Shown here one piece after another: positions 2,466 through 23,878 of a stretch of 64,000 bases of DNA (position 1 is the stretch's first letter; every line of letters starts with the position of its first letter). The stretch lies in IMG/VR virus record IMGVR_UViG_3300043411_000921, positions 62,001 through 126,000 of that record; one strand, written 5' to 3'. The position numbers and the translations under genes are program-made. The notes under the pieces are model-generated. The model was given only the letters and a program-made list of their open reading frames with translations, was not told where the DNA came from and made no database searches. The DNA is from a virus.

Positions 2466-2507
2466 TGGTGTTGAGCAGTAAATAACCACATAACAAGCCT
2501 TTGATCT

Positions 2508-2813
2508 TTATTCGTCTTCTGTTGAAGTTTCGACTTTCAAGAAGATTGCAGGATTCCCAGCAAAGTTAACAAAATCACCTTCTGGACCAAGTGCTGATAC
2601 CTTCACCCGTGTTGTCACTGGGCCAGTGCGGACAATGTGAGATTCTCCAGTAAGAGAGTAAAGCATCCTTGCGTCTTGTTCCGACTGAAAGGTTGAACTC
2701 AACAGAAGGAAAGATACTTTCTTTTCCCAATATTTGGAAGGACCAGAACAAAGATCGGGAAATCCATAGTCAATCTGGAAAAGAGTTCCAGGAACAAATT
2801 CATCGTGCTTCAT
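2508..2813 (-). CDS. hypothetical protein, paralogue of its upstream neighbour
   Basis: The 101-residue protein starts at an ATG in an ATGA overlap with the upstream gene. I do not recognise a family. It shares a layout with the protein encoded just before it: a VPGTLF/VPGALV turn near residues 7-12, a hydrophobic FLLLSS/FLFLSL strand mid-way and a C-terminal beta hairpin. This suggests an old tandem duplication of a small beta-rich domain. It is acidic at the very C-terminus (TSTEDE). Confidence 0.55.
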   Translation of the reverse strand: MKHDEFVPGTLFQIDYGFPDLCSGPSKYWEKKVSFLLLSSTFQSEQDARMLYSLTGESHIVRTGPVTTRVKVSALGPEGDFVNFAGNPAIFLKVETSTEDE

Positions 2814-3145
2814 TTTTGATCTCCCTGTTCCGTGTCACACACTTTAAGGCACACAACCAAGTCCATACAAGTGAAAACCTTTCCTCTGGCATTTAACCCT
2901 TTGAACCACACCAAAGGATTTGATTGATGATCCAACCCATCATCACTGACTCTGTATTCAATCAAAGACAGAAACAGGAAAGGTTCTTCGTAAGCTGGGA
3001 AGTCTCCTCTTCCCGCTGACAAAACGTTGTAGGAAGTCAAACCACCAGAAAACTTTTGGAGATATACAAGGGCACCTGGAACCAGGGTTTTGATGTTTGC
3101 TGTCTTGGCCGCAAACGCGGGGGATTTTTTTGATGTGGTTCTCAC
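2810..3145 (-). CDS. hypothetical protein, tandem paralogue
   Basis: The 111-residue protein begins at a GTG at 3145; no in-frame ATG precedes the conserved part. The basic N-terminus RTTSKKSPAFAAKT is followed by the VPGALVYL and FLFLSLIEYRV segments that it shares with the next gene downstream. Function unknown. The ATGA junction with the downstream gene indicates coupled translation. Confidence 0.5.
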   Translation of the reverse strand: MRTTSKKSPAFAAKTANIKTLVPGALVYLQKFSGGLTSYNVLSAGRGDFPAYEEPFLFLSLIEYRVSDDGLDHQSNPLVWFKGLNARGKVFTCMDLVVCLKVCDTEQGDQK

Positions 3146-3159
3146 ACCACGTTATTGTT

Positions 3160-3750
3160 TCAACTCAACTCTCGGAAATGACAGCCGTAATACTTCTCCA
3201 ACTTCCTCTTCGTTTCTGGAAGAAGGTTGGAAATCTTGTAGTCCAACATGCCAGTTTTCACAAGTGTGTCTTTGCTCAAGACAGCTTCCTCTGGATTCCA
3301 GAACTCAACACCAAACTGGTTCCTGAAAATCTCTTGAATCCTATCCGAGACATTGCAAGCAAGCAGCATTTTGTTGTTGTTTTTCTTCGTGTCCTTGGTT
3401 TTGGGCTTTCCAAACGGAACAGTCATTCGATGAGTTGGCTTTGTGACAACGAACTTGTTTTGGAAAGCCTTGAGATCGTTTTCGGTCCACTTTGCCAATG
3501 TCGATTCCAGCCAACTTGTTCCATCGGTTGTGTAGAAAACCATTGCGTCCGTACCAAAGCCCATTTGAATATACCAGGGAGAACCACGAGAAACACTCCC
3601 AAGCTCAAACATGTTTTCAATCCGATTCTTTTCAATCAACCTCTTACTGAGAAGATCAAGAGCGGATTGGTGAGAAGTGATTTGGTGGATTTCCTTGTTG
3701 GTTCCAACGACGAGGGGAATTGATTTTGCAACTGTTGTGGCTGTGCTCAT
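3160..3750 (-). CDS. hypothetical protein
   Basis: The 196-residue protein starts at the ATG at 3750 (MSTATTVAK), ten bases after the stop of the upstream nuclease gene. A TTG at 3786 would overlap that gene. It is mixed alpha/beta with a K-rich stretch (KPKTKDTKKNNNK) near residue 125, and no signal peptide or membrane segment. I recognise no family. Its position in the operon suggests a role linked to DNA or head metabolism, but nothing in the sequence shows it. Confidence 0.5.
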   Translation of the reverse strand: MSTATTVAKSIPLVVGTNKEIHQITSHQSALDLLSKRLIEKNRIENMFELGSVSRGSPWYIQMGFGTDAMVFYTTDGTSWLESTLAKWTENDLKAFQNKFVVTKPTHRMTVPFGKPKTKDTKKNNNKMLLACNVSDRIQEIFRNQFGVEFWNPEEAVLSKDTLVKTGMLDYKISNLLPETKRKLEKYYGCHFRELS

Positions 3751-3760
3751 GAGAGCAGGT

Positions 3761-4207
3761 CTAGCACCCGGCTTTTTTGGCTTCAACCAGTTTCCTAAAA
3801 CCCATCACAACGGCATCAGTCCAAACCTCAAACTCCCATCCTTTTCCTTCTTTGATGATCCAGGAACGGACAGCAGCATTTTTCAGCATGACCTTTTTGG
3901 TTGCGAGCTTGTCTTGTCTTTTGACTTCAACAATAACGGTTCTACCTGACTTATAGCGGACCAGAAAGTCTGGGTAGTAGGTGTGACCCTTACCTGCCAT
4001 CACATAAGGCACCATAAGGCTCTCATATTCATACGAGACCACTTCTGGATTATTGTCCAGAAACTCAGCGACCGTCTTCTCCCAGCCCGAACGATAATGA
4101 ATCGGCGCAGCACACTTCGGAGAGTGATGGATTCCTGTTTTGTAGTGCTTCCGTTTCCGTCTCTTCTTTGATAAAGTCGTGATTTTCTTTGTTCTCAATT
4201 TCAACAA
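3761..4207 (-). CDS. TnsA/T4 gp4-like PD-(D/E)XK nuclease, probable head-completion protein
   Basis: The 148-residue protein has a basic N-terminus (KKRRKRKHYK) and then the nuclease core YRSGWEKTVAEFLDNNPE (E43), YYPDFLVRY (D80) and VIVEVKRQ (E94, K96). T4 head-completion protein gp4 has the same order: YRS-W-E-K, NPE, D, E-x-K. TnsA transposase subunits share the fold. I infer trimming or protection of packaged DNA ends. The only plausible starts are TTG codons (4207 or 4204) behind a GGGGA Shine-Dalgarno, overlapping the upstream stop. A related nuclease domain recurs at about 51.5 kb. Confidence 0.6.
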   Translation of the reverse strand: MLKLRTKKITTLSKKRRKRKHYKTGIHHSPKCAAPIHYRSGWEKTVAEFLDNNPEVVSYEYESLMVPYVMAGKGHTYYPDFLVRYKSGRTVIVEVKRQDKLATKKVMLKNAAVRSWIIKEGKGWEFEVWTDAVVMGFRKLVEAKKAGC

Positions 4208-4686
4208 TTTTTCCCCGAAAGCCGTCTGTTGGCTTTTTCGTGAATTCCTGGTGGAGAATCAACAAACTCGAACCCTTCGTCTTCATCAACCACAAATTCT
4301 CCTTCGTAGTCACCATTGTCGGTTGCATAGCGGAAGTGGAGATTTACAAACCCATTGATCACCTCCACGGAAACTCCAAGGAAGTTCACATCAACTCCTT
4401 CAATCTTCAACAACGCTCCAGCAAGACTGTTGATCTGTCCGAATAGTATTTTCAGATTTTTGACAGCTTTGAAGCGGTTTTTGGAAACTTCTCTGGAGTT
4501 TGATGCAGTGCGATCCTCGAAGTTTTCTTGGGTGGAGTTTGCTCTATCTACTGCATTCTGCAAGTTAACAAACTTTTGAAGTATCTCCGAATGTTTCGAC
4601 TGCAACAACGGTTGATTCATCCTTTTCCATGCAGCGGAAAGGAACTCTTCGCGTATAGTATCTCCGATGAACTCTCGCAGATTCAT
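4201..4686 (-). CDS. hypothetical protein with possible capsid-targeting N-terminus
   Basis: The 161-residue protein starts at ATG 4686. The N-terminus MNLREFIGDTIREEF is an amphipathic helix much like the MKTYQEFIAEA-type capsid-targeting peptide of T4 internal head proteins, a resemblance in style only. A helical central part (residues 40-85) is followed by a beta-rich, acidic C-terminal domain. No family is recognised. It lies just upstream of the gp4-like gene, which fits a head-associated role as inference. Confidence 0.45.
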   Translation of the reverse strand: MNLREFIGDTIREEFLSAAWKRMNQPLLQSKHSEILQKFVNLQNAVDRANSTQENFEDRTASNSREVSKNRFKAVKNLKILFGQINSLAGALLKIEGVDVNFLGVSVEVINGFVNLHFRYATDNGDYEGEFVVDEDEGFEFVDSPPGIHEKANRRLSGKNC

Positions 4687-7302: not shown

Positions 7303-8313
7303 ATGGCATATATTCATCCGACCCCTTCATACGAATATTCTGACGTTTTCATCGTCCCCAACCATTCCACTGTAACCTCCAGGAAACAAGTCAACACTGA
7401 GGTTCAACTGGCAAGTCCAAACAGTGATCTCTCCCTTTCCATTATGGTTCCAGTTGTTTCGGCAAACATGGACACTGTGACAGGATCAAAGATGGCAATT
7501 GCTTTGTGGGAAGCCGGAGCAATTGGCGCACTTCACCGATTCAATTCAATTCCAGAAGCCGTTGAAGACTTCTTAGAAGTCCAGCGTGCTCAAGCAAACT
7601 GTTTTGTTTCTTTGGGTGTGAATTCAAACTGGCAAGAGAGAGCTTCTGCACTTTATGAAGCAGGAGCAAGGTTTTTCATTGTGGACATTGCTCATGGGCA
7701 TAGTTCAATGATGGAAAACACTGTCAAGTGGGTTAGAAACCGCTTTGGGCGAGATATTTTCATTGTTGCTGGGAACATTGGGACTTCTTGGGCTGTTGAC
7801 TCTATGAAAGATTGGAAGGTTGATGCGGTTAAGGTTGGGATTGGAGGCGGGAAGGTTTGCTTGACAAAGAATGTGACTGGAGTTGTTACTCCAATGTTTA
7901 CAACAGTGTTGGAGTGTTCTCAACGTGCTAGTAAATGGGGAATCCCAGTGATTGCAGATGGTGGAGCAAGGGAATATGGAGATGTTGCAAAAGCAATTGG
8001 TGCTGGAGCAACTGCTGTGATGTCTGGATACTTTTTTGCTGGATGTCCAGAATCTCCTTGTGTTGGTGGAACAACTGAGAAAGGCGAAGTGATTTATCGT
8101 GGTATGGCAAGCAGTGAAGCGGCAGTCAAAGTTCGGAGTGTTGACACACTTCCAACACCGGAAGGCGAGAGTATTTTCGTTCCCAAAAAGCCTTCAGCAA
8201 AAGAAGTTGTGGAGCTTCTCAAGGGTGGTTTGCAATCAGCGTACTCCTACGTCGGCGCAACATCCACTCATGAATTCCGAGAAAACATCTCGTTTGGTAT
8301 CCGTGGAAGGTAA
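7303..8313 (+). CDS. GMP reductase / IMP dehydrogenase family enzyme
   Basis: The 336-residue TIM-barrel protein carries SANMDTVT near 54, VDIAHGHS near 128, the active-site loop [12 protein letters not shown] (C186, T188), VIADGG near 217 and YRGMASSEA. It has no CBS domains. The spacing of C186 and T188, the EGES motif near residue 288 (E289) and the total length match E. coli GMP reductase closely, so deamination of GMP to IMP is more likely than IMP oxidation; the exact reaction is inference. It would shift purine pools during phage replication. It diverges from the peptidase gene by 54 bases. Confidence 0.8.
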
Positions 8314-8317
8314 CACT

Positions 8318-9055
8318 ATGACAAAACAACCAAAAACAAATCATCCCCTGAAAGCACGTCTTTTCATTGGTGGACTCAAATCCCTCTTCGGAGACATGCA
8401 CGACATGCTTGAAGAAGTCGAAAAGACTGGGCAAATGTCGAGAGATATGATTACCAGCCTTACCGATGTTCACGAAGCAATTGATCTTGCTGTTGATGAA
8501 CTCAAGAAGGTTATGTCTCCTTGTTGCGATCATAGTCCAGACGCACATCAGTGTGATGACACTTGCAACGACGAAACAACAACTGTTCCGTACACGGGGA
8601 AAGTGGTTGGGGTGGAAGGTTCGCCAACACAGTCGCCAGGAGGCCCAGAAGCTTTTGTAATCGACGAGGATGAAGAGGATGACCAGGAACCCGTCGAAGA
8701 AATTCAAGGGCAAGGAAAAGCCTCCTGGAGCGTTTGTGATGTGTGTGGATGTGACGGTTGTTGCGAACCGGACGAGCAACGTGGATGCGACGTTTGCGGG
8801 TGCGGCTGTTTTGTGGAAGAAGATGCCACATTCACACCTTCTCTGAAAGGACCATCCCCAAGCGATTTCTCTTCAATAGTAATGGATCCAGAAGATATTC
8901 CTTATGATTCTAAGAGACACTTGAGAGTTATTCGTCACAACACTCCGAGTGGAACCTTTCCCACCGAAGAAGACCTTGATTGCAAGCAAGATGTTTCCGA
9001 AGTTCCTACAACTGACAAGAAACAGCCGAAGAAAAAGTCGAAGACAAAGAAGTAG
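8318..9055 (+). CDS. Cys-rich acidic hypothetical protein
   Basis: The protein starts at ATG 8318, four bases after the GMP-reductase stop, and has 245 residues. A helical N-terminus (residues 10-70) precedes a Cys/His patch CCDHSPDAHQCDDTC near 75-90, an acidic DEDEEDDQEP linker, and two near-repeats CDVCGCDGCC and CDVCGCGCF near 145-170. A lysine-rich tail (KKQPKKKSKTKK) ends it. The paired CDVCGC modules suggest metal binding (zinc or iron-sulfur), but I know no family with this arrangement. No signal peptide or membrane segment is visible. Confidence 0.6.
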   Translation: MTKQPKTNHPLKARLFIGGLKSLFGDMHDMLEEVEKTGQMSRDMITSLTDVHEAIDLAVDELKKVMSPCCDHSPDAHQCDDTCNDETTTVPYTGKVVGVEGSPTQSPGGPEAFVIDEDEEDDQEPVEEIQGQGKASWSVCDVCGCDGCCEPDEQRGCDVCGCGCFVEEDATFTPSLKGPSPSDFSSIVMDPEDIPYDSKRHLRVIRHNTPSGTFPTEEDLDCKQDVSEVPTTDKKQPKKKSKTKK

Positions 9056-9078
9056 TGTTGGTGTATGGTGCTCTTAGC

Positions 9079-10059
9079 ATGAGCACTTTACCAAAAAAAC
9101 CAAGATCAACAACCTCAGATTCCCCTCCCAACTTCACAAAGAAGCATCTCAAAATCATTCAGACAAGCACGGAAAACATTCGTACTTCTGATTCGATTGA
9201 TTCTCTCCTTGAAGGAACAACAAAGATTGAACCTGTTGGATTGGACTTCTCTGCTCCAACCAACATGGATTATCTTTCAATCCGTGGCAACATCTCTTTC
9301 TCCGAGCTTTCTACCTGGAGAACGTGTGCTTTTCGTCACAAGCTGAAATACCTGGACAAGATCAATGGTGGAGCACTTGATGGTCCATCTGAACACACAG
9401 AGTTTGGTCATGTGATTCACACGGCCCTCGAAGTGTTTCTGGAAACTCGAAAGATGCCATCCTATGATGATGTCAAGGTCGGCCTTTCCTACGCATTCAG
9501 CGAACTTCCAAACGTTGCTTCTCTGAAAGAAGAAGAATGGCATGGTGTCGTTGAACCAATCCTTTCGGAAGTCCCAGCGTTTATGGACGAAATGTTTGGA
9601 AAAGACTGGAAGTATGTTGCCAGTGAATATCCATTGATGGAGCCAATTGAAGGACACAATCATCTCTTCAAAGGTTTCATTGACGGCGTGATCACTGCAA
9701 TGAACAAAAGAGGTGAGGAAATCACCTATTTGGTAGACTGGAAAACGGCCAGTTATTCTTGGCCTGTTTCCAAGAAAACAGATCCAAACAAGACAATGCA
9801 GTTGGTTCTTTACAAACACTTCTACTCCCAGAAAACGGGTATTCCTCTGGATAAAATCCGTTGTGCCTTTGTTGTTCTCCGCAGGTCTAAAAAACCTGGG
9901 AACTGTGAGTATGTTTCAGTATCTGTTGGACCCAAGGCACTCAGCAACGCTCTGGAATCCGTTGACTCGATGTTGGGTCATGTGAAAAGGAAGATTTTCC
10001 CCAAAAACAGGCAAAACTGTCGGTTCTGCCCCTATGCCAACACTCCTCATTGCCCTTGA
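9079..10059 (+). CDS. Cas4/AddB-like PD-(D/E)XK nuclease with Fe-S cysteine cluster
   Basis: The 326-residue protein has the RecB-type nuclease order: ISFSELSTWRTC (C83), GHVIHTALE (H114), a GFIDGVI strand, LVDWKTA (D and K of the active site), then MQLVLYKHF (motif QxxxY-like). The C-terminus has CRFCPYANTPHC, which with C83 gives the four cysteines of a 4Fe-4S cluster as in Cas4 and AddB. Single-strand exonuclease activity in recombination or end processing is expected for the family. The ATG at 9079 was chosen over a GTG at 9055. Confidence 0.8.
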   Translation: MSTLPKKPRSTTSDSPPNFTKKHLKIIQTSTENIRTSDSIDSLLEGTTKIEPVGLDFSAPTNMDYLSIRGNISFSELSTWRTCAFRHKLKYLDKINGGALDGPSEHTEFGHVIHTALEVFLETRKMPSYDDVKVGLSYAFSELPNVASLKEEEWHGVVEPILSEVPAFMDEMFGKDWKYVASEYPLMEPIEGHNHLFKGFIDGVITAMNKRGEEITYLVDWKTASYSWPVSKKTDPNKTMQLVLYKHFYSQKTGIPLDKIRCAFVVLRRSKKPGNCEYVSVSVGPKALSNALESVDSMLGHVKRKIFPKNRQNCRFCPYANTPHCP

Positions 10060-10076
10060 AAGAAAAAACACAAGAC

Positions 10077-10841
10077 ATGGAAACAGAATTTCTTGACGAA
10101 TTGATCCCACTTCTTCCAGAAGAACCTATCATCATTTATCAGTCACCTCTTGGTCACAGAGAGAAGAGAGATTATTCAGGAAGCAAAAAGGAGCTTGTGA
10201 TTCTCCTATCGGATGAATCACATCAGCCTGTTGATTTCAAAAACTGTTTGGTGTTTAGGAATTACATTCCCTCAAAACCAGCAGCCAACGAAAGACCAAT
10301 TCCTCTTCCATTTGCCTCTGGATTCAAGAGTGATTTAACGGAGCACTTGTCATTCAATGACAGGAAATACATGATGGCCTTTGCTGGTTTTGTGGGCGAT
10401 ATGCGGAGGCAACAAGCTGTCAATGCCATGTCCACCATTGGGAAGCAATTAAATCGTGTCTATATTCGTCCTAGTGAGGGTTTCTCAAAAGGATTGACGC
10501 GACAGGAATATAGTGAAGTGATGTGCAATACCATGTTGGCAATCTGTCCACCTGGAGGAAGTCACGAATCATTCAGGATGACAGAGGCTTTGAAAGCTGG
10601 ATGTATTCCTGTGTTGTTGAACAAAAAAGATCGTCAGTGGTATGACCCGGACTTCAAGACAGCTTTTTGGTTGCAATCGTGGGATGAACTTCCAGGGCTT
10701 GCTTCCTGGGTCATTAATACCGATCCAATGATTTTGAAGGAACGCTCCAAGGCTTGTAGAGAATTTTACAAGACTCATCTTTCACCAGAAGCAGTCGCAG
10801 GATATATCACAAGAGAATGGTACAAGGATCAAACCAAATGA
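10077..10841 (+). CDS. exostosin-like (GT47-type) glycosyltransferase
   Basis: The 254-residue protein has the exostosin signature in its second half: YSEVMCNTMLAICPPGGSHESFRMTEALKAGCIPV, with the SFR, EA and GCIPV elements at about 145-180, and a preceding YMMAFAGF strand. It would transfer a sugar from a nucleotide donor. It is the first gene of the glycan cluster and overlaps the epimerase gene in an ATGA junction. I start it at ATG 10077 rather than at an upstream TTG. Confidence 0.75.
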   Translation: METEFLDELIPLLPEEPIIIYQSPLGHREKRDYSGSKKELVILLSDESHQPVDFKNCLVFRNYIPSKPAANERPIPLPFASGFKSDLTEHLSFNDRKYMMAFAGFVGDMRRQQAVNAMSTIGKQLNRVYIRPSEGFSKGLTRQEYSEVMCNTMLAICPPGGSHESFRMTEALKAGCIPVLLNKKDRQWYDPDFKTAFWLQSWDELPGLASWVINTDPMILKERSKACREFYKTHLSPEAVAGYITREWYKDQTK

Positions 10842-11800
10842 AAAAAAACAGAGCGGCGATTGTCACAGGTGGAGCAGGCTTCATTGGAAGCAATCTCGTC
10901 GATACCCTCATTGCCAAAGACTTTCAAGTTATCTGCATCGACAATGAATCAGCAGAAAGCAATTCACAGTTTTACTGGAATCCAGCAGCACACAACATCA
11001 AAGGAAATGTCTGTCACCAAGACAGCATTCTTTCAGATGTTCGTTGGATTGCCAATGAACACAACTTGAATATTGAGACGGTTTATCACCTTGCAGCAGA
11101 AGCAAGGATCCAGCCTTCCTTCAAGAAAAAGGATCTGGTGTTCAGAACCAATGTGATGGGAACGGTTTCGATGTTGGAAGTGGCAAGGGAGTTGAAGGCA
11201 AGCAGGTTTGTTTATTCTTCCACTTCTTCGGCATACGGGAACGCTTCTATTCCTTTCGATCAATACACTCCAACGAAGTGTTCCACGCCTTATGCGGCTG
11301 GGAAGGTGGGTGGTGAGCTTGCTTGCTTTGCTTATGATACAACAGGTGCAGAAGATGAACTCCAAACGACTGTGTTGAGGTACTTCAACGTTTATGGACC
11401 AAGACAGCCAATCAAAGGGCAATATGCCCCAGTGGTTGGGTTGTTCTTGCGCCAAAAAGCAGAAGGAAAACCTCTGACGGTTGTTGGTGATGGAAAGCAA
11501 ACCAGGGATTTTACCCACGTCGATGACATTGTTGCTGGAACAATTGCCGCTGGTGATGTTTCCAACTTTATTCCAGAGAGCATTAGGAAGAATCCAATCA
11601 ACCTTGGGACAATGGAGAGATATAGCATCCTCTATCTGGCAGAAATGATCGGTGGAGAAATCGTTCATGTGCCCGAGAGAAGGAATGAAGCTCGGCATAC
11701 CCAAGCTGACATTTCTGTCGCCCATGTTTGGTTGAACTATCAACCAACTGTTAAACTAACCGATTGGATCAAAGAGGAATTGAAGAAGGTGAAGAAATGA
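10838..11800 (+). CDS. NAD-dependent nucleotide-sugar epimerase/dehydratase
   Basis: The 320-residue extended-SDR protein has the NAD motif VTGGAGFIGSNLV at residues 8-20, YHLAAEA near 86, YSSTSSAYG with the catalytic Ser, and YAAGK with the Tyr-Lys pair near 148. It ends with the NVYGPRQ and TRDFTHVDD substrate-side motifs. This is closest in pattern to UDP-glucose/UDP-GlcNAc 4-epimerases (GalE/WbpP type). With the UDP-glucose dehydrogenase and two PLP-fold enzymes further on, it supplies modified sugar donors. Confidence 0.8.
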   Translation: MKKNRAAIVTGGAGFIGSNLVDTLIAKDFQVICIDNESAESNSQFYWNPAAHNIKGNVCHQDSILSDVRWIANEHNLNIETVYHLAAEARIQPSFKKKDLVFRTNVMGTVSMLEVARELKASRFVYSSTSSAYGNASIPFDQYTPTKCSTPYAAGKVGGELACFAYDTTGAEDELQTTVLRYFNVYGPRQPIKGQYAPVVGLFLRQKAEGKPLTVVGDGKQTRDFTHVDDIVAGTIAAGDVSNFIPESIRKNPINLGTMERYSILYLAEMIGGEIVHVPERRNEARHTQADISVAHVWLNYQPTVKLTDWIKEELKKVKK

Positions 11801-12519
11801 CAATGACTGTTTTGGTAAAGTTTCCGACAAGAGGAAGGCCGGACAGGTTTTTCCCTGTGTTGGACAGGTATTACTACGGATCCAAGAAAAAGAATGCAAC
11901 CAAGTTTCTTGTGTCGTGTGACCTGGATGATCCCAGCATGAACAATGATACTGTAAGACAGAAGTTCTCTCAGTATCAGAATCTTGAAGTGTGCTATGGT
12001 AACTCCAAAACCAAAATTGAAGCTGTGAATGCTGACATGGATAAAGCTGGGGAATACGATATTCTCCTGCTCGCCTCAGATGACATGATCCCAGAGGAAA
12101 GAGGATACGATGAGATCATCAGAGGAAAGATGGAGGAGTTGTATCCAGACACCGATGGTGTTCTTTGGTTTTTTGATGGGTACCGAAAAGACTTCAACAC
12201 TCTCTGTATTCTCGGAAGGAAATATTACGAGCGGTTTGGGTACATCTATCATCCAGATTACAAGTCCTTCTGGTCTGACAACGAGTTTACCGAGGTTGCG
12301 AACTCTCTTGGCAAGCAGACTTTCATTGACAAGGTAATCATTAGACACGTTCACCCCGACTGGATTCAAAGAGATCCAGCAACGAAAACGCTGTTCCAAC
12401 AGATTCATCCAACCACAACGAATATCGGGCTTGATGAAACCTTCATGAAGAATCTGCCCTACGAAAGACAGGATGCTGCTGTGTATCTCCAGAGAAAGGC
12501 AGCAGGGTTTCCTAGATGA
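11797..12519 (+). CDS. glycosyltransferase-like protein (GT-A type)
   Basis: From ATG 11797 the 240-residue protein reads VKFPTRGRPDRFF at the N-terminus, the typical nucleotide-binding first strand of phage and bacterial GT-A enzymes. LLLASDDMIPEERGYDEII near 88-105 provides a DxD-like SDD motif. The C-terminal half has aromatic and His residues (HVHPDW). It fits a small inverting glycosyltransferase, donor unknown. ATGA-type overlaps on both sides place it firmly in the cluster operon. Confidence 0.6.
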   Translation: MTMTVLVKFPTRGRPDRFFPVLDRYYYGSKKKNATKFLVSCDLDDPSMNNDTVRQKFSQYQNLEVCYGNSKTKIEAVNADMDKAGEYDILLLASDDMIPEERGYDEIIRGKMEELYPDTDGVLWFFDGYRKDFNTLCILGRKYYERFGYIYHPDYKSFWSDNEFTEVANSLGKQTFIDKVIIRHVHPDWIQRDPATKTLFQQIHPTTTNIGLDETFMKNLPYERQDAAVYLQRKAAGFPR

Positions 12520-13169
12520 AAAAGATCATCTCGTTCTGTCTCTGGGGAAATGATCCAAAGTACACGATTGGAGCTTTGAGAAACGCAGAGCTTGCCAAGA
12601 CAGTTTATCCTGGGTGGACTCCAAGGTTTTACGTTGGTTCTTCCACTTCCCCAGCCGTAACAAAACAACTTCTTCGTGCAGGCGCAGAGGTTGTCAACAT
12701 GACCGAACCTGGAGATTGGAGAGGAATGTTCTGGAGGTTTTATCCTGCTGGGGAGCCTGATGTCGAAGTAATGTTGTCCAGAGACACAGACTCAAGACTT
12801 TCCATGAGAGAAAGGGCTGCCGTTGATGAATGGCTCTCAGACCCAGAGAAAGTGTTCCATATCATGAGAGATCATCCAGCACACAAAACAGAAATTCTTG
12901 GTGGGATGTGGGGTGCAAGAGGAGGATTCCTTTCAGAGATGAAACAGTTGATCGACGAATATCCAGCAGGAGACTTCTGGCAGGTTGATCAAAACTTCCT
13001 CAGAGAGAAGATTTATCCACTCGTCAAACATCGTGCAAAAGTTCATGATCCCTTCTTTGAGAACAAACCTTTCCCAACACCAAGAATTGGAACAGAGTTT
13101 GTTGGTGACGTGTTTGATTCGACCGATGTAAGACACCCAGAATATTGGAAAGCAATTCCCCAACAATGA
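12516..13169 (+). CDS. putative glycosyltransferase with DxD motif
   Basis: The 217-residue protein begins FCLWGNDPKYTIGALRNAELAKTVYPGW, has GDWRGMFWRFYP, and then VEVMLSRDTDSRLSMRE with the DTD metal-binding motif near 92-94. FHIMRDHPAH and WQVDQNFL follow. This order (WGxxPKY, W-R, RDxD, D-Q) is common among small capsular and phage glycosyltransferases. Donor and acceptor are unknown. Confidence 0.65.
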   Translation: MKKIISFCLWGNDPKYTIGALRNAELAKTVYPGWTPRFYVGSSTSPAVTKQLLRAGAEVVNMTEPGDWRGMFWRFYPAGEPDVEVMLSRDTDSRLSMRERAAVDEWLSDPEKVFHIMRDHPAHKTEILGGMWGARGGFLSEMKQLIDEYPAGDFWQVDQNFLREKIYPLVKHRAKVHDPFFENKPFPTPRIGTEFVGDVFDSTDVRHPEYWKAIPQQ

Positions 13170-14044
13170 AAATCCTCATGATTCAAGAGCGTGGCAGGCA
13201 CGAAGCAAACAGAGAGTTTCGTGAAAGTGAAAACTTCCGACGTTCCTTCGAGCGAATTGGTGTTGAGTCTGAGGTCTGGGGAATCAACCAACCAACCTTT
13301 TCAATCCCATTCCATGAAATGATCAAGGACTATGATGTGATCTTTGCGATGGAGAACTACGACGAATCTGGTTGGCTCCCAGACCTTTCTCAAATCACAA
13401 ACAAATTCAAGGTGTTCTGGAGTATTGACTCTCACCTCGCTTTGGGTCAGCACGTTTTCTTTTCCAAGCGAGCCAAGTTTGACTTGCATCTCAACAGCAC
13501 GGAAGGATACCTCAAACACTTCCTCCGTCATTCTCCGACTTGTCTCTGGTTTCCCAATGCTTATCCCGATGATCTGATTGATCATATTCCACATGCCTCT
13601 AAATCGCACGACGTTGGCTTTTGCGGGTCACTGATTGGTGGAAGGGGTCAGTGGTTGGAAAATATTTCCTCTGCCTCTAATAAGGCGATTAGACGGGATG
13701 CTGGGGTTCTGGGAAGAGGGATGGTGGAAGCCATCAACTCCTACAAGGTTGCCTTGAACCAAAGTCTTCTGGATGACATCAACTACCGAGTGTTTGAAAC
13801 TCTTGGAGCAAAAACATGTTTGCTCACCAACACCGTTCCTGGGTTGGATAAGCTTTTCATCCCAGGCAAACACTTGATGACTTACAGTAATCAGCAAGAG
13901 CTTGTTGAAAAACTGCATTATCTTCTGGGGAAGCCAGAAGTTGTTGAAGAAGTTGCTGCTGCTGGGTATGATCACGTTAGAGCAAATCACACTTATGATG
14001 TGAGAGCCAAACAACTGATGGAGATTTTGAAGGAGAAGGTATGA
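13166..14044 (+). CDS. CgeB-like glycosyltransferase
   Basis: The 292-residue protein begins MKILMIQERGRHEAN and has a GT-B-like C-terminal half: DVGFCGSLIGGRGQW, then YKVALNQSLLDDINYRVFETLGAKTCLLTN and a final helix HTYDVRAKQLMEIL. This N-R-x-FE...G segment is the hallmark of CgeB/glycosyltransferase 1_2 family proteins with a DUF3880-type N-terminal part. I chose the ATG at 13166, in overlap with the preceding stop. It adds a sugar to an unknown acceptor. Confidence 0.75.
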   Translation: MKILMIQERGRHEANREFRESENFRRSFERIGVESEVWGINQPTFSIPFHEMIKDYDVIFAMENYDESGWLPDLSQITNKFKVFWSIDSHLALGQHVFFSKRAKFDLHLNSTEGYLKHFLRHSPTCLWFPNAYPDDLIDHIPHASKSHDVGFCGSLIGGRGQWLENISSASNKAIRRDAGVLGRGMVEAINSYKVALNQSLLDDINYRVFETLGAKTCLLTNTVPGLDKLFIPGKHLMTYSNQQELVEKLHYLLGKPEVVEEVAAAGYDHVRANHTYDVRAKQLMEILKEKV

Positions 14045-17204: not shown

Positions 17205-18355
17205 TCGAGCTTGTGAAAGATACCATCGACAAGAAAGACATCAACCAACTCATCAAGTGGTTGAAAACATATCCAAGACTCACCAAGGGTGAATTGACAA
17301 CCAAATTTGAGGAGAAGTGGTCGAAAATGCTGGGAGTTGAACACAGTGTTTTTGTGAACTCTGGTTCGTCTGCAATTCTCATGATGCTCCAAGCTCTTTT
17401 GGAATCTGGAAGAGTTCAACGAGGAAGTAAGGTCGTTGTCCCAGCTTTATCCTGGGCAACTGACTTTTCTTCTCCTGTTCAACTTGGCTTTGAACCAATT
17501 GTTTGTGATTGCAACCTGGAGGATCTCTCTGTTGACTTGAATCAGTTGAAAGAAATCTTTGAAGTTGAAAAGCCCGCAGCCTTGATTCTTGTTTCTGTTC
17601 TGGGATTGGTTCCAGACATGGACGCTGTTGTCCAACTCTGTCAAGAACACAATGTTATTCTGCTGGAAGATGTGTGTGAGTCTTTGGGCTCAACCTACAA
17701 AGGCAGGCAACTCGGAACCTTCGGTGCCATGAGCATCTTTTCCACTTACTTCGGTCATCACATCAGCACGATTGAAGGCGGAATGGTTTGCACCAATGAC
17801 CCAGAACTTAACATGGTTTTGAAAGCAATCAGAAACCACGGGTGGGATAGAGACCTCACAACAGAACAAAAAACAGAACTCAGGACCGCGTTCGGCGTTG
17901 ATGACTTCAGTGCTCTCTACACGTTTTACTTCCTTGGGTTCAACTTCCGTTCAACCGATCTCCAGGCGTTCCTTGGAATGGGACAACTAGACAAGCTTCC
18001 TTCGATTGTAAAGAAGCGCAACAAAAACTTCTTGCAGTATAAGAAGGAGATTTACAATCTCTGGTCTCCGCAAAGCTCTGAGGGTGGGTTTGTTTCCAAC
18101 TTTGCCTATCCAGTGCTTCTCCAGAACAAGGAAGAGGCATTGGTGAGATTAAACGCTGCTGGGGTTCAAGTGCGTCCTTTGATTTGTGGGAGTATGACTT
18201 CCCAGCCGTTCTACACGAAGAACTTTCCAACACCAAAATATGACACGCCAAATGCAAGGCTTGTTGACAAGCACGGCTTCTACCTTCCAAATCATCCAAA
18301 GCTGACACGAAAAGAAATTTCTGTTGTGTGTGCAGCTATCAAAGACCTCTGGTAA
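17201..18355 (+). CDS. ColD-like PLP-fold sugar 3-dehydratase (His in place of Lys)
   Basis: The 384-residue DegT-fold protein keeps the cofactor contacts NSGSSAIL near 53-60 and LLEDVCESLGS near 154-164. The usual Schiff-base lysine is replaced in STYFGHHISTIEGGM (H186-H187). This FGHH-x-(S/T)-T-x-EGG motif is characteristic of ColD (GDP-4-keto-6-deoxymannose 3-dehydratase) and RfbH-type enzymes, which use PMP and a catalytic histidine to remove the 3-hydroxyl. The product would be a 3,6-dideoxy sugar such as colitose or a relative. Overlap with the aminotransferase gene suggests a joint pathway. Confidence 0.75.
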   Translation: MIELVKDTIDKKDINQLIKWLKTYPRLTKGELTTKFEEKWSKMLGVEHSVFVNSGSSAILMMLQALLESGRVQRGSKVVVPALSWATDFSSPVQLGFEPIVCDCNLEDLSVDLNQLKEIFEVEKPAALILVSVLGLVPDMDAVVQLCQEHNVILLEDVCESLGSTYKGRQLGTFGAMSIFSTYFGHHISTIEGGMVCTNDPELNMVLKAIRNHGWDRDLTTEQKTELRTAFGVDDFSALYTFYFLGFNFRSTDLQAFLGMGQLDKLPSIVKKRNKNFLQYKKEIYNLWSPQSSEGGFVSNFAYPVLLQNKEEALVRLNAAGVQVRPLICGSMTSQPFYTKNFPTPKYDTPNARLVDKHGFYLPNHPKLTRKEISVVCAAIKDLW

Positions 18356-18360
18356 ACCAA

Positions 18361-19269
18361 ATGGCAATCAACATTTCACTGGAAACTCATAGACCTCTCT
18401 ATGAGGACTTCTACGCTTGCCTTGATTTTCTTCATGGTGTGAAAGACGAGGATTACTCCTACCCAGACAGGATTGTCCCTTTTCACATTTACTCTGAGTT
18501 TAAGACCGACAAAGAGATCGTCAGCTTGATGTCTTACTTCGCCACACAAAACCTTGAGAAAACCAAGGTGATTGTTTGGTCTGACTATGACATCACCAAC
18601 GAACCAAGAGTTCAGAGGTTCAAACACTTGGTTGATTTCAGAGTTTGGAATGCTGAGAAGGAAGCGGTTGGAAGTCCGATTGAAGGAGACACGAGAATGT
18701 TTCGGGCTGCTGATCAGAAACATTATCTCCAGAGTGATCTTTTGAGACTGCTTGCTTTGTGGAAGTACGGAGGCGTCTGGATCGACATGGATATTATCCT
18801 CCTCAGAGATTTCAAACCTCTTTTGGATCAAGAATGGATGTATATGTGGGGAAGTGAAACAGACTTCAAAGCCCAAGGAGCCTGTGCCTCTGTTCTCAGT
18901 CTCCAGCCAAAGTCGTACCTTGCAACAGAGCTTCTTGTTGAAGCACAGAAGATGCCAATTGTTCCCAACTCTACATGCTGGGGCAAGGATATGTTTGCTC
19001 AACTTTACCGCAGATTACCTTTCCAGGTGATGCCAGCAACGTTTTTCAACATTGAATGGTGTATGAACAAGCGTATTCCCGGAGCTGGCGACGCTGCTGA
19101 GTCCGGTTGGTTCAAGAGCCTTCCCAGCAACCACAAACACTTGTTCCCAGAAACGTTTGCTTGGCATTGGCATAACAGCAGCAAGAAGGATTTGATTGTT
19201 GAGCCAGGATCCAAGTTTGATCTTTTGACCAAGTTGACAGAACAGAAACTGGTTGATCGAGGTCTTTGA
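18361..19269 (+). CDS. GT32-like DXD glycosyltransferase
   Basis: The 302-residue protein has the DXD sugar-transferase signature YLQSDLLRLLALWKYGGVWIDMDIILLRDF near 118-148 (D-L-x-R-x-x-x-L-x-x-x-G-G-x-W-x-D-x-D). This is the mark of GT32 and related retaining enzymes. The C-terminal AWHWHNS matches the family's H-x-W-x-x-S motif. The ATG at 18361 was chosen over an overlapping ATG at 18328. Confidence 0.8.
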   Translation: MAINISLETHRPLYEDFYACLDFLHGVKDEDYSYPDRIVPFHIYSEFKTDKEIVSLMSYFATQNLEKTKVIVWSDYDITNEPRVQRFKHLVDFRVWNAEKEAVGSPIEGDTRMFRAADQKHYLQSDLLRLLALWKYGGVWIDMDIILLRDFKPLLDQEWMYMWGSETDFKAQGACASVLSLQPKSYLATELLVEAQKMPIVPNSTCWGKDMFAQLYRRLPFQVMPATFFNIEWCMNKRIPGAGDAAESGWFKSLPSNHKHLFPETFAWHWHNSSKKDLIVEPGSKFDLLTKLTEQKLVDRGL

Positions 19270-19286
19270 GAGTCAATACATAAACA

Positions 19287-19311
19287 ACCCACAGAATCAA
19301 TCCTTGTGGGT
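19287..19311 (+). promoter_or_regulatory. hairpin just before the methyltransferase start
   Basis: ACCCACA (19287-19293) and TGTGGGT (19305-19311) form a perfect 7-bp stem with an 11-nt loop, ending two bases before the ATG at 19314. No good Shine-Dalgarno lies between hairpin and start, so the hairpin probably tunes initiation. It has no T-tract and is an unlikely terminator. Confidence 0.5.
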
Positions 19312-19313
19312 AA

Positions 19314-19958
19314 ATGCCAGAAAACAAACAATGGGCAACAAAAGAGGTAGCAGTTCAACACGGTTATCTCTCCCCACCTTCCCAACCCCTTCCCAGCCAT
19401 CTAGCAGCAATCCAAGCAATCAAACCATTCCTTCTTCAACTTCGCAAGTCTGATAAAGATAAACTCTACGTCAGTGACTTGGGCTGTGGAAATGGAAGAA
19501 TGATCCTTGCTCTCGAACAAGTGCTTGGTCCTTCTGTTCCATTTGGTTATGTCGGATACGATTTCAACGAATCTTGCTTGGAGGAAGCGAGAAGGAATTT
19601 CCCAGATCGCTTTTTCATGACAATGGATTTGGATGCTTATGATGGTATGGCCCCAACCCATTCAGATTTGGTTATCCTTGACAGCACCTTGTCGATGGTA
19701 GAAAGACCCAAAGAACTCCTCCTCGGGCTTCTAAAAGCCAACAGAGCGGTTCTGGTGGAGCGTATCAGAACCGGAGAAAAAACAGTCAGAGAAGAATATG
19801 TTTGGGGAGGAATGACTCAGCCATCAGTCAACTGGGCATTCCACCCTTCCTTCTTCTTTGAAGTTGCCAATGAATCAGGTTGCATGATCGCTCACAGAAG
19901 CGACACACGAATCCTTTTTGTGAAAGATGAAGACGAAGAAAACAGCAATGATGAATAA
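19314..19958 (+). CDS. class I SAM-dependent methyltransferase
   Basis: The 214-residue protein has the SAM-binding motif VSDLGCGNGRMI near 52-63, an acidic second strand GYVGYDFNESCLEEA near 77-91 and a DLVILDS strand near 117. It is a small methyltransferase, likely acting on a sugar or sugar-linked group because it lies within the glycan cluster; the target is inference. The acidic C-terminus (DEDEENSNDE) overlaps the start of the dehydrogenase gene. Confidence 0.75.
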   Translation: MPENKQWATKEVAVQHGYLSPPSQPLPSHLAAIQAIKPFLLQLRKSDKDKLYVSDLGCGNGRMILALEQVLGPSVPFGYVGYDFNESCLEEARRNFPDRFFMTMDLDAYDGMAPTHSDLVILDSTLSMVERPKELLLGLLKANRAVLVERIRTGEKTVREEYVWGGMTQPSVNWAFHPSFFFEVANESGCMIAHRSDTRILFVKDEDEENSNDE

Positions 19959-20871
19959 CAATCAGACAACAACAATCAGTGTGATCGGGAATGGATTTGT
20001 GGGTGGCGCAGTTGCCAATGGCTTCTCAAGGCTCAATCCAAAGGTTTACGACATTGATCCGAAAAGATCAACGTGCTCCCTAACAGAAGCTCTTGAATCA
20101 AAATTCATCTTTGTCTGTCTTCCAACCCCAATGGTAAGTGCAGAAGGTGGAGAAGCAAATCTCTCCATCATCGAATCCTTCTTTCAACAAGCATTCCAAC
20201 ATTCCATCAATCCCTCTTCTGTCTTTGTCATCAAATCAACAGTTCCAGTAGGAACAACCAAAAGACTTCAGAAACAATTCCCTGGTTTGAGGTTGGTTCA
20301 CAATCCAGAGTTCCTGACAGCAGCAAGGGCCAACCTGGATTTCATCAATGCAGACAGAACTGTTTTGGGTGGTGATGACCAGGATGCCCTTCAATCGCTC
20401 CAGGAGCTTTATGCGGGCGAGTTCCCTCATGTTCCTACCCTTACCATGTCCAGCACCGACAGCGAGCTTGTAAAATACTCTGCGAACTGTTTCCTGGCAA
20501 CCAAGACCATGTTCTTCAACGAGATCAAATTCCTCGCTGAGAAAATGGGTGCAACCTATGAGAACGTTGTCGCGGGAGTTGTCTCCGACAAAAGAATTGG
20601 TCCGAGTCACACAAAAGTTCCCGGACCTGATGGAGACTACGGGTTTGGTGGTACCTGTTTCCCCAAAGACATCAATGCCCTTGTTTCAACGATTGAAAGT
20701 TGTCAAGAAGATTGCTTAGTGGAAGATAACCAGAAGAGGGATCCAAAAGGGACTCATATAGTTCCTTCACCTTCGTCTAAGATTTTCAAAGCTGTCTGGG
20801 AGAGGAACAAGGAAGTTAGGAAGAACTGGGATTGGGCATCCAGTCCATCTGCCGTGAAAGGTCTGTCGTGA
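19951..20871 (+). CDS. UDP-glucose/nucleotide-sugar 6-dehydrogenase, short phage type, with 21-residue insertion
   Basis: The 306-residue protein has the NAD motif VIGNGFVGGAVANGF (11-25), IKSTVPVGTT near 94, NPEFLTAARA near 118 and the catalytic GGTCFPKD (C236). It oxidises a UDP-sugar, normally UDP-glucose to UDP-glucuronate. The length fits the compact phage form that ends shortly after the K-x-x-x-E-x-N-x-x-V-R helix. Residues 257-277 (VEDNQKRDP through SPSSK) split that C-terminal helix region and correspond exactly to the dispersed element copy A. Without them the flanks align as one continuous segment. The stop is followed in frame by a nuclease remnant. Confidence 0.75.
   Translation: MNNNQTTTISVIGNGFVGGAVANGFSRLNPKVYDIDPKRSTCSLTEALESKFIFVCLPTPMVSAEGGEANLSIIESFFQQAFQHSINPSSVFVIKSTVPVGTTKRLQKQFPGLRLVHNPEFLTAARANLDFINADRTVLGGDDQDALQSLQELYAGEFPHVPTLTMSSTDSELVKYSANCFLATKTMFFNEIKFLAEKMGATYENVVAGVVSDKRIGPSHTKVPGPDGDYGFGGTCFPKDINALVSTIESCQEDCLVEDNQKRDPKGTHIVPSPSSKIFKAVWERNKEVRKNWDWASSPSAVKGLS
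20719..20781 (+). repeat. dispersed 28-bp-core element, copy A (in frame in UDP-sugar dehydrogenase)
   Basis: The core at 20719-20746 contains ATAACCAGAAGAGGGATCCA. The insert is read in the frame GTG-GAA-GAT-AAC (VEDNQKRDP). After the core, AAGGGACT-CATAT-AGTTCCTT forms an 8-bp stem with one G-T pair. The 63-bp length comes from the break in the dehydrogenase's conserved C-terminal segment and equals the best length for copy B. Confidence 0.85.
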
Positions 20872-21117
20872 AAGTCAAGACGGCACTGCAATCCAAAACC
20901 GTACTCGAAAGACTACTATCATAAAGTCAAAGGCATTCCCGCCAAAGAAGTCTGGAAAAGGGACAAACAAAGAGTCAAAGCCTTGAAAGCTCTTGGTTAT
21001 TCAGTCTTCGTTGTTTGGGAAAATGATTTCAAAGATGAGCGAACTAAGACACTGGAAGGTGTCAAAGAATTTCTAGGGAAAGAGAATGAATCAACAACAA
21101 CTTCAACAGCCTGTTAG
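20872..21117 (+). pseudogene. C-terminal remnant of a Vsr-like endonuclease
   Basis: Directly after the dehydrogenase TGA, and in the same frame, 81 codons stay open to the TAG at 21115-21117. They encode HCNPKPYSKDYYHKVKGIPA, then EVWKRDKQRVKALKALGY and VFVVWENDF. This matches the C-terminal part of Vsr/very-short-patch-fold nucleases, including many phage homing endonucleases (W-x-R-D-x-x-R...L-x-x-x-G-Y-x-V-x-x-x-W-E). The N-terminal half with the catalytic acidic residues is absent and no credible start codon exists, so it looks like a truncated relic. Its end overlaps the first exon of the intron-split glycosyltransferase. Confidence 0.6.
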
Positions 21118-22649
21118 GAAAAACAAGATCCTGGTATTGAGCGACCATCCATTAAACTGACTTGTGACAGTGGATGTAAAATTGGGTGAATTGCTGGAAA
21201 CTCCTGAGAGCAGCACACGCAACAGCAAAACTGGAAACGGTATGTGCGATTGCAAAAAAGATGTGTTGATTGGACAATCAGCAGCCAAGCTCCTGTCTGG
21301 AAACAGTGGAGAAGGTTCAACGACTACGGTTAGCCTAAAAGCTCTTGCTCATGGCGATGATCCGACAGCGCCCAGCAATTCGACAATCGAATTGATGATA
21401 TAGTCTGTTCGTTGGTGAAAATCAGCGAGTAAACGTGTGTACTTCGGGTGTTGGTACCCAAAGCCGCTTTCTTATTCATGGTCTTGTAGCAACGGGAAGA
21501 TATTCGTTCCGTTGTCTTGGAGGAGCGATCAAACACCCGAACTATGATCCAATCGTAGTAAACCCAGATTTCATCATCAAACCTGTTGATGGCTTCGGAG
21601 ACAGGAATATGATCAGGAACCTCCTGATCAATGAAAGACCAGACGCGGTTCTACTGTTCACAGATCCAAGACAGTTTATGTGGCTTTGGGAAATGGAAGA
21701 TGAGATTCATCAGGTTTGCCCTATCGCTTATTGGCACGTCTGGGACAATGATCCATACCCTGCATTCAACGATGTTTGGTATCACTCAACAGACCTGATC
21801 AACTGTCTTTCTCACAAAACCTACGAGCTTGTCAAACCTCATTTTCCAGAGAGAACAAACTACATTCCTCACGCCTTTCCGAAAGAGGTTTATCATCCTC
21901 TTCCAGCAGAGACAGTAAAACAACTGAGGAGTGTGAATTACAAGGAGCGTGCTGACTGGTTCATTGGAGCTTGGATCAACAGGAATGCAACCAGGAAGAT
22001 GCCAAACGATGTCTTGATGTCTTGGAAGATGTTTTTGGATGATCTGGAGAAGAAGGAAGGTCACAGGAAGGCAATGCTCGTGATGCACACTGACCCACAA
22101 GACACAGAAGGACCAAACCTTTTTGCAACCGTCGAGAACCTTGGATTGACCAGTAATGTTGTGTTCTCAACTCAAAAGGTTGATTTCAACGACATGAATG
22201 CGCTTTACAACTCAGTTGATTTTATTGTGAACGTGTCGAAGGCAGAAGGGTTTGGATTGGCAACCTTGTCTGGTTTGATGGTTGGGAAACCGATCATTGC
22301 ACTGAAGACTGGGGGAATGACACGTCAGGTTGTGGATTATCGAGATGGAACAGAGCATGGGGTTGCCATTGATCCAGCTTGCAGAGTTCTTGTTGGCTCT
22401 CAGATGGTTCCTTACATCTTCGACGATCACTTCAAACATGAAGATTTGTCAGCAGCCTTTCTAAAGGTTTATTCCATGTCTCCAGAAGAGAAAGAAGTGC
22501 TTACCAAAAAGAACATTGCTTATGCTGAACACGAGTTCGGTTATGAGAAGATGATCTCTGAGTGGGATAGGACTCTGGATAAAGTGATCAGAGATTTCAA
22601 GAGCAACCCACCAAAACGCTGGACATGCTCCAAACTCAACAACAAGTGA
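21086..22649 (+). CDS. GT4-family glycosyltransferase split by a group I intron (exons 21086-21152 and 21436-22649)
   Basis: Exon 1 starts at ATG 21086 behind an AGGGAAAGAGA Shine-Dalgarno and encodes 22 residues ending KILVLSDHP. Exon 2 continues CTSGVGTQSRFL. Splicing T21152 to T21436 restores the LSDHPLxxSGVGTQ motif common in phage GT4 enzymes. The C-terminal donor domain reads VNVSKAEGFGLATLSGLMVGKPIIA (E-x-F-G type) near residues 275-300. The mature protein has about 427 residues. Unspliced, translation stops at TGA 21158-21160. A GTG at 21435 opens the 3' frame but would lose the first strand, so splicing is needed for a full enzyme. Confidence 0.85.
21153..21435 (+). ncRNA. group I intron, 283 nt, without internal ORF
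   Basis: P1: exon bases CATCCAT (21146-21152) pair with the internal guide GTGGATG (21170-21176), giving the conserved U-G pair at the splice site. P10: TGT of exon 2 (21436-21438) pairs with ACA (21167-21169). P4: TGCTG (21192-21196) pairs with CAGCA (21279-21283) within the Q element. The R element GTTCAACGACTA (21315-21326) gives P7, GACTA with TAGTC (21401-21405). P8: CAATTCG/CGAATTG (21376-21394). P9: a 7-bp stem with a GAAA tetraloop (21410-21427). The terminal G is 21435. No homing endonuclease ORF fits inside. Confidence 0.92.
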
Positions 22650-22660
22650 ATAACAACACA

Positions 22661-23878
22661 ATGAACACTTCATCCACAAAGAAAACTGTTCTGCTTAGGG
22701 GTCCATTGTTGGTACATGCCGGTTACGGCGTGCATACCCGTCAAATTGCTCGTTGGCTGTTTCGTGTTGCATCCGAACAACACGATCTTGACATTACAAC
22801 CGAACCACTTCCTTGGGGAGACACACACCTTCTCGTAGACCCAGAAGCAGAAGATGGACTCATTGGACAAATCCTTCAAGCTTCGGGAAACAAGAAGTCC
22901 TTCTACGATGTAACAATCCAAGTCCAGCTTCCAAACGAATGGAATCCTTTCTTGGGAAATTTTAACGTTGGTGTGACTGCTGGAGTTGAGACAGATAAGT
23001 GCAATCCAGCTTGGATTGATTGCATCAACAGGATGGACATGGTTGTTGTTCCCAGCACCTTCACCAAAGAAACCTTCATGGCAACAGGTGAAATCAAAGT
23101 TCCTGTTGCTGTGATCCCAGAAGCGTTTCCAGACGCAATGCAAGACCAGAACCAACTTATTCCAGAGGATCCAGACTTGGATTTGGGGTTGACAACAAAG
23201 TTCAATTTGTTGGTTGTTGGTCAGTTGACAGGAACTAATCCTGAGAATGACAGGAAGAACCTTCCTTACACTCTCAAGTGGATTGCTGAAACTTTTGCAG
23301 GCAACAAAGATATTGGTGTGATTGTCAAGACGAATGCTGGAGCACAGACACAACTTGACAAGAAGAACGTTGAAGGAATTTTCAAGAAGCTTGTTACCGA
23401 GATTCAGCCTGCTGGTGTTCCTGGTCCAACCTTTTATCTTCTTCATGGTCACATGACTGATGAAGAGATGAACAGGCTGTATCGGCACAAGGAAATTGCA
23501 GCCCTGATTTCTTTGACACACGGCGAAGGTTATGGACTTCCCATTCTTGAAGCTGCTGCTTGCGGTCTTCCAGTGATTGCAACAAACTGGAGTGGGCATC
23601 TTGAATTCCTGAAGCATGGAAAGTTTATTCCGGTTGACAGGATGTTGGGAGAGGTTCCAGCTTCCAGGGTCGATGGTCAAATCTTCCTTGCTGGAATGAA
23701 GTGGGCCAACCCAGTTGAGATTGACGTGAAGAGAAGGTTGAGGAAGTTTTACGAGTCTTCTTCTATGCCAAAGCAATGGGCGAGGGAATTGGCTCGTGTG
23801 ATTCAGAAGGAATACTCGTTCGACGCGGTATCCAGTATTTACTCAAAAGCCCTTGGTGGCGTTTTGGGGAGTTCCTGA
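22661..23878 (+). CDS. GT4-family glycosyltransferase
   Basis: The 405-residue GT-B protein has the N-terminal VLLRGPLLVHAGYGVHTRQIARWL glycine-rich segment, NLLVVGQLTGTNPENDRKN in the linker, and the donor-site block ISLTHGEGYGLPILEAAACGLPVIATNWSGHLEFL near 285-320 with the E-x7-E-type residues. It is a paralogue in fold of the preceding intron-split enzyme. The ATG at 22661 avoids the 25-base overlap that the ATG at 22625 would create. Its stop overlaps the next start (TGATG). Confidence 0.8.
   Translation: MNTSSTKKTVLLRGPLLVHAGYGVHTRQIARWLFRVASEQHDLDITTEPLPWGDTHLLVDPEAEDGLIGQILQASGNKKSFYDVTIQVQLPNEWNPFLGNFNVGVTAGVETDKCNPAWIDCINRMDMVVVPSTFTKETFMATGEIKVPVAVIPEAFPDAMQDQNQLIPEDPDLDLGLTTKFNLLVVGQLTGTNPENDRKNLPYTLKWIAETFAGNKDIGVIVKTNAGAQTQLDKKNVEGIFKKLVTEIQPAGVPGPTFYLLHGHMTDEEMNRLYRHKEIAALISLTHGEGYGLPILEAAACGLPVIATNWSGHLEFLKHGKFIPVDRMLGEVPASRVDGQIFLAGMKWANPVEIDVKRRLRKFYESSSMPKQWARELARVIQKEYSFDAVSSIYSKALGGVLGSS

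Follow-up and report, generated by a model that had tools for sequence, protein, structure and literature searches.

A phage glycosyltransferase gene carries an ORF-less group I intron that is probably half of a collaborative-homing element with a decayed Vsr-like endonuclease

We analyzed a group I intron lacking an open reading frame (ORF) in a glycosyltransferase gene of a large phage, within a window of 64,000 nucleotides (positions 62,001 to 126,000 of IMG/VR record IMGVR_UViG_3300043411_000921). The intron is probably one half of a bipartite collaborative-homing element; the other half would be an upstream free-standing endonuclease, resembling Vsr and I-Bth0305I in its nuclease domain, that has decayed in the window phage. 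This interpretation draws on four features that can be read from the sequences: an intron with definable splice sites, its association with an endonuclease gene, a footprint of joint transfer in a related allele (L130), and the decay of the window endonuclease. To judge from related contigs, here designated by L numbers, the window intron is one member of a family at a single nucleotide of a glycosyltransferase gene family.

The intron spans positions 21153–21435 (283 nucleotides) of the plus strand, on which the exons, the endonuclease remnant, and the UDP-glucose dehydrogenase gene also lie. A covariance-model search with RF00028 (group I intron) matched positions 21123–21427 across the full model (1–253) with 84 bits (E = 6.5e-20; gathering score = 50), and a scan of the 241,399-base phage record found no further group I intron. 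The splice sites (T21152 / 21153…G21435 / T21436) are fixed by 14 other introns at the same site and by intronless homologues. Joining the exons restores LSDHPLCTSGVGTQ and an ORF of 427 amino acids from ATG 21086; the unspliced reading from this ATG stops after approximately 23 codons. About 76 distinct IMG/VR homologues without the intron contain the same codons uninterrupted. The covariance-model match, the restored ORF, and the unbroken intronless homologues together confirm the intron at the coordinates and splice sites proposed in the initial annotation. The glycosyltransferase assignment made there likewise held: exon 1 (21086–21152), defined by the spliced ORF and alignment to intronless homologues, stops one base into a leucine codon, and exon 2 (21436–22649) matches Glyco_trans_1_4 (37.4 bits; cut-off 27) and is 70–76% identical to its IMG/VR relatives. 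The spliced product is a GT-B glycosyltransferase, and the intron sits in its conserved SGVG motif.

The conserved group I core (P3, P4, P6, P7, and P8) is present in the window intron, based on the full-model match and covariation across 14 introns. P1 pairs the exon strand CATCCAT (21146–21152) with the intron guide strand GTGGATG (21170–21176), and both sides of this helix change among relatives. The U·G pair at the 5′ splice site (T21152–G21170) and the last intron base (G21435) are the same in all introns compared. P10 pairs ACA (21167–21169) with TGT at the start of exon 2 (21436–21438), giving three pairs in the window and up to six in relatives. The 5′ strands of P4 (21192–21197, pairing with 21278–21283) and P7 (GACTA, 21322–21326, pairing with TAGTC, 21401–21405) are invariant in the 14 introns, and the P8 hairpin (21376–21394) shows two-sided changes at five pairs. 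Of the helices originally paired by eye, P1, P4, P7, and P8 are thus supported by the 14-intron alignment, and P10 fits its own exon better than others (see below). The GAAA-capped P9 stands in the window (21410–21427, from the RF00028 alignment), but is absent from some relatives. P7.1 and P7.2 lie between P7 and the P3 3′ strand, a placement that suggests subgroup IA. The intron is indeed ORF-less in that it encodes no endonuclease; an internal ORF of 79 amino acids (21164–21403) can start only at a GTG, and the corresponding stretch contains insertions and deletions in the same-site introns.

Sixteen further IMG/VR contigs contain introns of the same family at the identical nucleotide, all ORF-less where complete. 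These comprise the relatives L001, L002, and the contig-truncated L013; L105/L126, L106, L107, L112, L115, L117, L118, L124, L128, and L130, which were added by an endonuclease-independent search with a DNA pattern starting at the P7 3′ strand and ending within exon 2; and L143, L145, and L146, which were added by an endonuclease search. The 15 complete introns are 255–287 nucleotides long, all interrupt one leucine codon between its first and second bases, and contain no endonuclease ORF (0/15). L124 also contains a second RF00028 match (positions 8442–8646; 51.8 bits), located away from the glycosyltransferase gene.

We drew a structure comprising P1, P3–P8, P7.1, and P7.2 by hand for 14 introns. 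Bases pair in 96% of its cells, compared to 27–47% when partners were slid by 1–3 columns as a control, and 20 pairs are changed on both sides. The guide sequences vary with the exons that they contact. In L115, the exon strand ATGCCGT (versus CATCCGT) is accompanied by the guide GCGGCAG (versus GCGGATG), altering two P1 pairs on both sides. Exon 2 starts differ by phage (TAGCTC, TAAGTC, TAATGC, TGAGCA, or TAAGCA) and the P10 intron strand varies in step: introns form a mean of 4.9 consecutive P10 pairs with their own exon versus 2.9 with swapped exons. The observed sum was not matched in any of 100,000 permutations, though this test overstates independence given that some of the introns are closely related. 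Such P1 and P10 changes matched to the host exon provide strong indirect evidence that the same-site introns splice.

The statement in the initial annotation that the intron has no homing endonuclease was correct for the intron itself, but not for its surroundings. Directly upstream lies a truncated endonuclease gene (20872–21117; 81 codons plus stop) that overlaps exon 1; this Vsr-like C-terminal remnant is 40% identical over 65 amino acids to the L001 endonuclease (E = 1.5e-14). Both L001 and L002 contain an intact endonuclease ORF of 307 amino acids directly upstream, again overlapping exon 1, and intact genes also accompany the intron in L112, L117, L130, L143, L145, and L146. Five residues (E185, D215, E226, H233, and D259), candidates for the E, D, H, D active site of EDxHD endonucleases, are invariant in 11 endonuclease relatives. 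The window stump has no in-frame ATG start and should be inactive, because the residues aligned with E185, D215, and E226 are lost. It contains AGGGA upstream of ATG 21086, and may have been retained for the ribosome-binding region that it supplies to the glycosyltransferase gene. Other decayed copies include C-terminal stumps in L105 and L115, and a pseudogene with a stop codon and an internal deletion in L128. No second endonuclease copy was found in the window’s record.

Complete endonucleases are 269–341 amino acids long with cysteine-rich N-terminal parts. In an AlphaFold2 model (mean predicted local distance difference test score 81; predicted template modeling score 0.42), the C-terminal domain matches Vsr (1vsr), the catalytic domain of I-Bth0305I (3r3p), and 1cw0 with a Foldseek probability of 1.00. 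A sequence profile search retrieved Vsr at E = 0.028, and I-Bth0305I was absent from its results at E up to 1; PHROG matches include families named homing endonuclease and HNH endonuclease. These results point to an endonuclease that is Vsr/EDxHD-like, short of proven membership. Bacterial and archaeal genomes yielded nothing closer than distant matches to the nuclease domain. In Tenacibaculum phage PTm1 (L135, positions 1455–4261), an annotated VSR endonuclease is distantly similar to the window-type endonuclease; its gene is flanked by an intein-containing split DNA polymerase fragment on one side and a DNA polymerase gene on the other.

The intron and endonuclease are strongly associated. 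An endonuclease gene or remnant is directly upstream in 13/13 intron loci, compared to 1/~75 intronless loci (Fisher p ~ 1e-12, a value inflated by relatedness of the loci). The 13 loci (the window, L001, L002, L105, L106, L107, L112, L115, L117, L118, L124, L128, and L130) were found independently of the endonuclease and have upstream sequence present; the intronless loci counted each have at least 300 nucleotides of upstream sequence, and L036 is the sole Vsr-like case among them. The upstream partner is Vsr-like in 12 of the 13 intron loci. In L106, it is instead an Endo VII-like endonuclease, truncated where the contig ends (positions 1–288; PHROG 1035, E = 8.8e-10), indicating that the endonuclease partner of the intron can change. 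Conversely, every one of the 12 best-matching endonuclease relatives in IMG/VR occurs at this glycosyltransferase gene (12/12), compared to none of the next 68 (0/68). Four of these 12 loci are intronless: L022 (record of L147), L036 (record of L148), L141, and L149, in which the gene is broken. Intron-bearing and intronless loci were not separated in the endonuclease tree, which therefore gives no order of assembly.

One allele, L130, preserves a footprint of transfer. Compared to the empty allele L033, L130 contains an extra block of approximately 1.25 kb (reverse-strand positions 916–2166) comprising the endonuclease, exon 1, the intron, and about 20 nucleotides of exon 2; the flanks are 89.4% identical upstream and 88.1% identical downstream. 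Within the block, L130 resembles L117, with 86–89% identity in the endonuclease region, 100% in the last 40 nucleotides of exon 1, and 96% in the intron. The upstream flank is 82.6% identical to L117, below its match to L033, and exon 2 is ~80% identical to L117 but 88–89% to L033 and L097, with diagnostic bases switching about 20 nucleotides into exon 2. This is one clear case in which endonuclease and intron appear to have been gained together, from an L117-like source into an L033-like genome, and the crossover position is suggestive of a cut at the intron site. L145 and L146 show a similar contrast (intron 95%, exon 2 60–84%). L001 and L002 are mostly ~99% identical around the locus, yet a 105-bp patch differs just after the intron. 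Across a glycosyltransferase gene tree of 95 sequences, we counted at least nine changes of intron state, making a single gain followed by plain inheritance unlikely. The L130 footprint, the L145/L146 contrast, and these state changes would fit repeated homing of a joint unit.

In the mechanism that we propose, the endonuclease would act during co-infection, cutting an intronless copy of the glycosyltransferase gene where the intron inserts or close by, and repair from the carrier would bring in the endonuclease, exon 1, and the intron. The intron would then split the target site, shielding the carrier, while RNA splicing would preserve glycosyltransferase function. The window intron should still splice, but should no longer home alone, because its endonuclease is reduced to a stump.

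Other explanations account for parts of these data. The endonuclease could be an ordinary intronless-homing gene whose cut falls close to the 5′ end of the glycosyltransferase gene, such that the intron merely lies inside the co-conversion tract and its site is no target. We regard this as rather unlikely, though it would explain the four endonuclease loci that lack introns, as well as the pair L035 and L036, in which the intron site is unchanged and a mostly silent patch lies upstream of it. It agrees less well with L130, where the block reaches far to the left but stops ~20 nucleotides past the intron, the pattern that a break at the intron site should leave, or with L001 and L002, where the patch of differences begins right at the intron end; a cut elsewhere would also leave the near-constant endonuclease or stump at intron loci unexplained. 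Following a general suggestion in the literature (PMC10448857), the intron might alternatively have once held an internal endonuclease, lost it, and later gained a free-standing one. The Endo VII-like partner in L106 indicates that partners can be exchanged, and related phage introns elsewhere have nuclease-like genes near the intron core; the absence of an endonuclease ORF from every complete intron and the existence, at this very position, of loci with an endonuclease of this family but no intron make this history improbable.

Two further readings fare worse. A plain intron relic beside an endonuclease by coincidence, with no joint movement, might be proposed since the window endonuclease is a mere stump, but is very difficult to reconcile with the locus counts (13/13 versus 1/~75), the relative counts (12/12 versus 0/68), and the L130 footprint. 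That there is no intron, with the protein beginning at GTG 21435 and exon 1 unrelated, is scarcely conceivable: this GTG is in frame with the downstream ORF, but such a start is ruled out by the 84-bit Rfam match, the exactly rebuilt motif, the uninterrupted homologues, the same-site introns, and their compensatory changes. Several observations nevertheless weigh against the collaborative-homing interpretation. The Foldseek E-values are modest (0.004–0.03, none below 0.001). The relatives are all metagenomic contigs and many loci are near-copies; misassembly could conceivably have made L130 a chimera, although independent contigs agree on the wider pattern. Finally, L036 has the endonuclease without the intron, and its intron-site sequence is unchanged relative to the near-identical L035, which lacks the endonuclease; the two differ in a short patch in the first codons. 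The cut may therefore lie off the insertion site in that lineage.

Collaborative homing remains our preferred explanation. We suggest more tentatively, as a possibility somewhat short of even, that this one gene position captures every stage in the life of a mobile intron as it assembles (empty; endonuclease alone; endonuclease with ORF-less intron; decayed endonuclease; and swapped endonuclease), with the endonuclease arriving first and the intron joining at its cut site.

The host gene lies in a run of sugar genes (18328–23878) encoding a DXD-type glycosyltransferase, a methyltransferase, a UDP-glucose dehydrogenase, and two GT-B glycosyltransferases. The UDP-glucose dehydrogenase gene (19927–20871; UDPG_MGDP_dh_N and UDPG_MGDP_dh above cut-off) ends with its stop codon directly 5′ of the endonuclease remnant. 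In Microcystis phage Mel-JY01 (L137, positions 1998–3489), the homologous glycosyltransferase is annotated as two successive ORFs. In addition to its group I intron, the glycosyltransferase gene of L128 (positions 8054–10351, minus strand) contains an intein with a LAGLIDADG-like domain, and a second LAGLIDADG intein is present in the PD-(D/E)XK nuclease gene upstream (positions 11670–13445, minus strand).

Collaborative homing itself is not new: in cyanophage S-PM2, it is established for F-CphI and the psbA intron (Zeng et al., 2009, described in PMC6083498; reviewed in PMC3984707). The present system shares with it an intron in a conserved gene, a free-standing endonuclease gene next to it, other alleles that lack the intron, and the expectation that the intron blocks cutting. 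They differ in host gene (psbA versus glycosyltransferase) and nuclease (Endo VII motif versus Vsr-like fold); moreover, cleavage was measured for S-PM2 and is predicted for our system, and endonuclease-only, decayed, and swapped states are seen here. As cited in PMC10448857 and PMC3984707, Bonocora and Shub (2009) described a free-standing endonuclease and an ORF-less intron converging on one conserved target in T3/T7-like phages; that convergence is the likeness, and the phages and, per these reviews, the genes are different. Collaborative homing has also been proposed for the ICP1 terL intron with its adjacent T5orf172 endonuclease, for which splicing was demonstrated by RNA sequencing and reverse transcription PCR (PMC10448857); the gene and nuclease type differ, and no series of states was described there. 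The present system appears to work like the psbA/F-CphI and ICP1 terL cases. The EDxHD homing endonucleases such as I-Bth0305I (PMC3943268) resemble the present proteins in nuclease domain fold (3r3p; template modeling score 0.71 on target) and in being long, multi-domain proteins with extra DNA-binding regions; they differ in that the present proteins are free-standing and, as above, in profile-level similarity. Introns with a similar core (70–76% nucleotide identity over ~100–150 nucleotides) occur at other sites in other genes, namely those for the Lactococcus AM1 tape measure, Serratia Totoro RNA polymerase, and Vibrio 1.232.O capsid, several with a nuclease-like gene close downstream. An intron tree neither supported nor rejected the glycosyltransferase introns as a clade apart from other phage introns (approximately unbiased test, p = 0.45).

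As far as literature searches reach, several aspects appear new: the glycosyltransferase host, the Vsr-like partner, the overlap of the endonuclease gene with exon 1, the partner replacement, the same-family endonuclease-only loci at the same place, and the range of states found at a single site. The host gene had been flagged as unusual from the outset, and no earlier report of a group I intron in a phage glycosyltransferase gene turned up in a full-text search. To our knowledge, no Vsr-like nuclease was previously known in a collaborative partnership.

These findings add a sugar-transfer gene to the known hosts of phage introns. They also provide, at one nucleotide position in one gene family, nearly all possible states, natural pairs of empty and filled alleles, and a readable transfer footprint; with such pairs and such a footprint, synthesized DNA can be used to test directly where the endonuclease cuts and in which order the parts came together. 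If the endonuclease did come first, this would answer how a collaborative arrangement arises.
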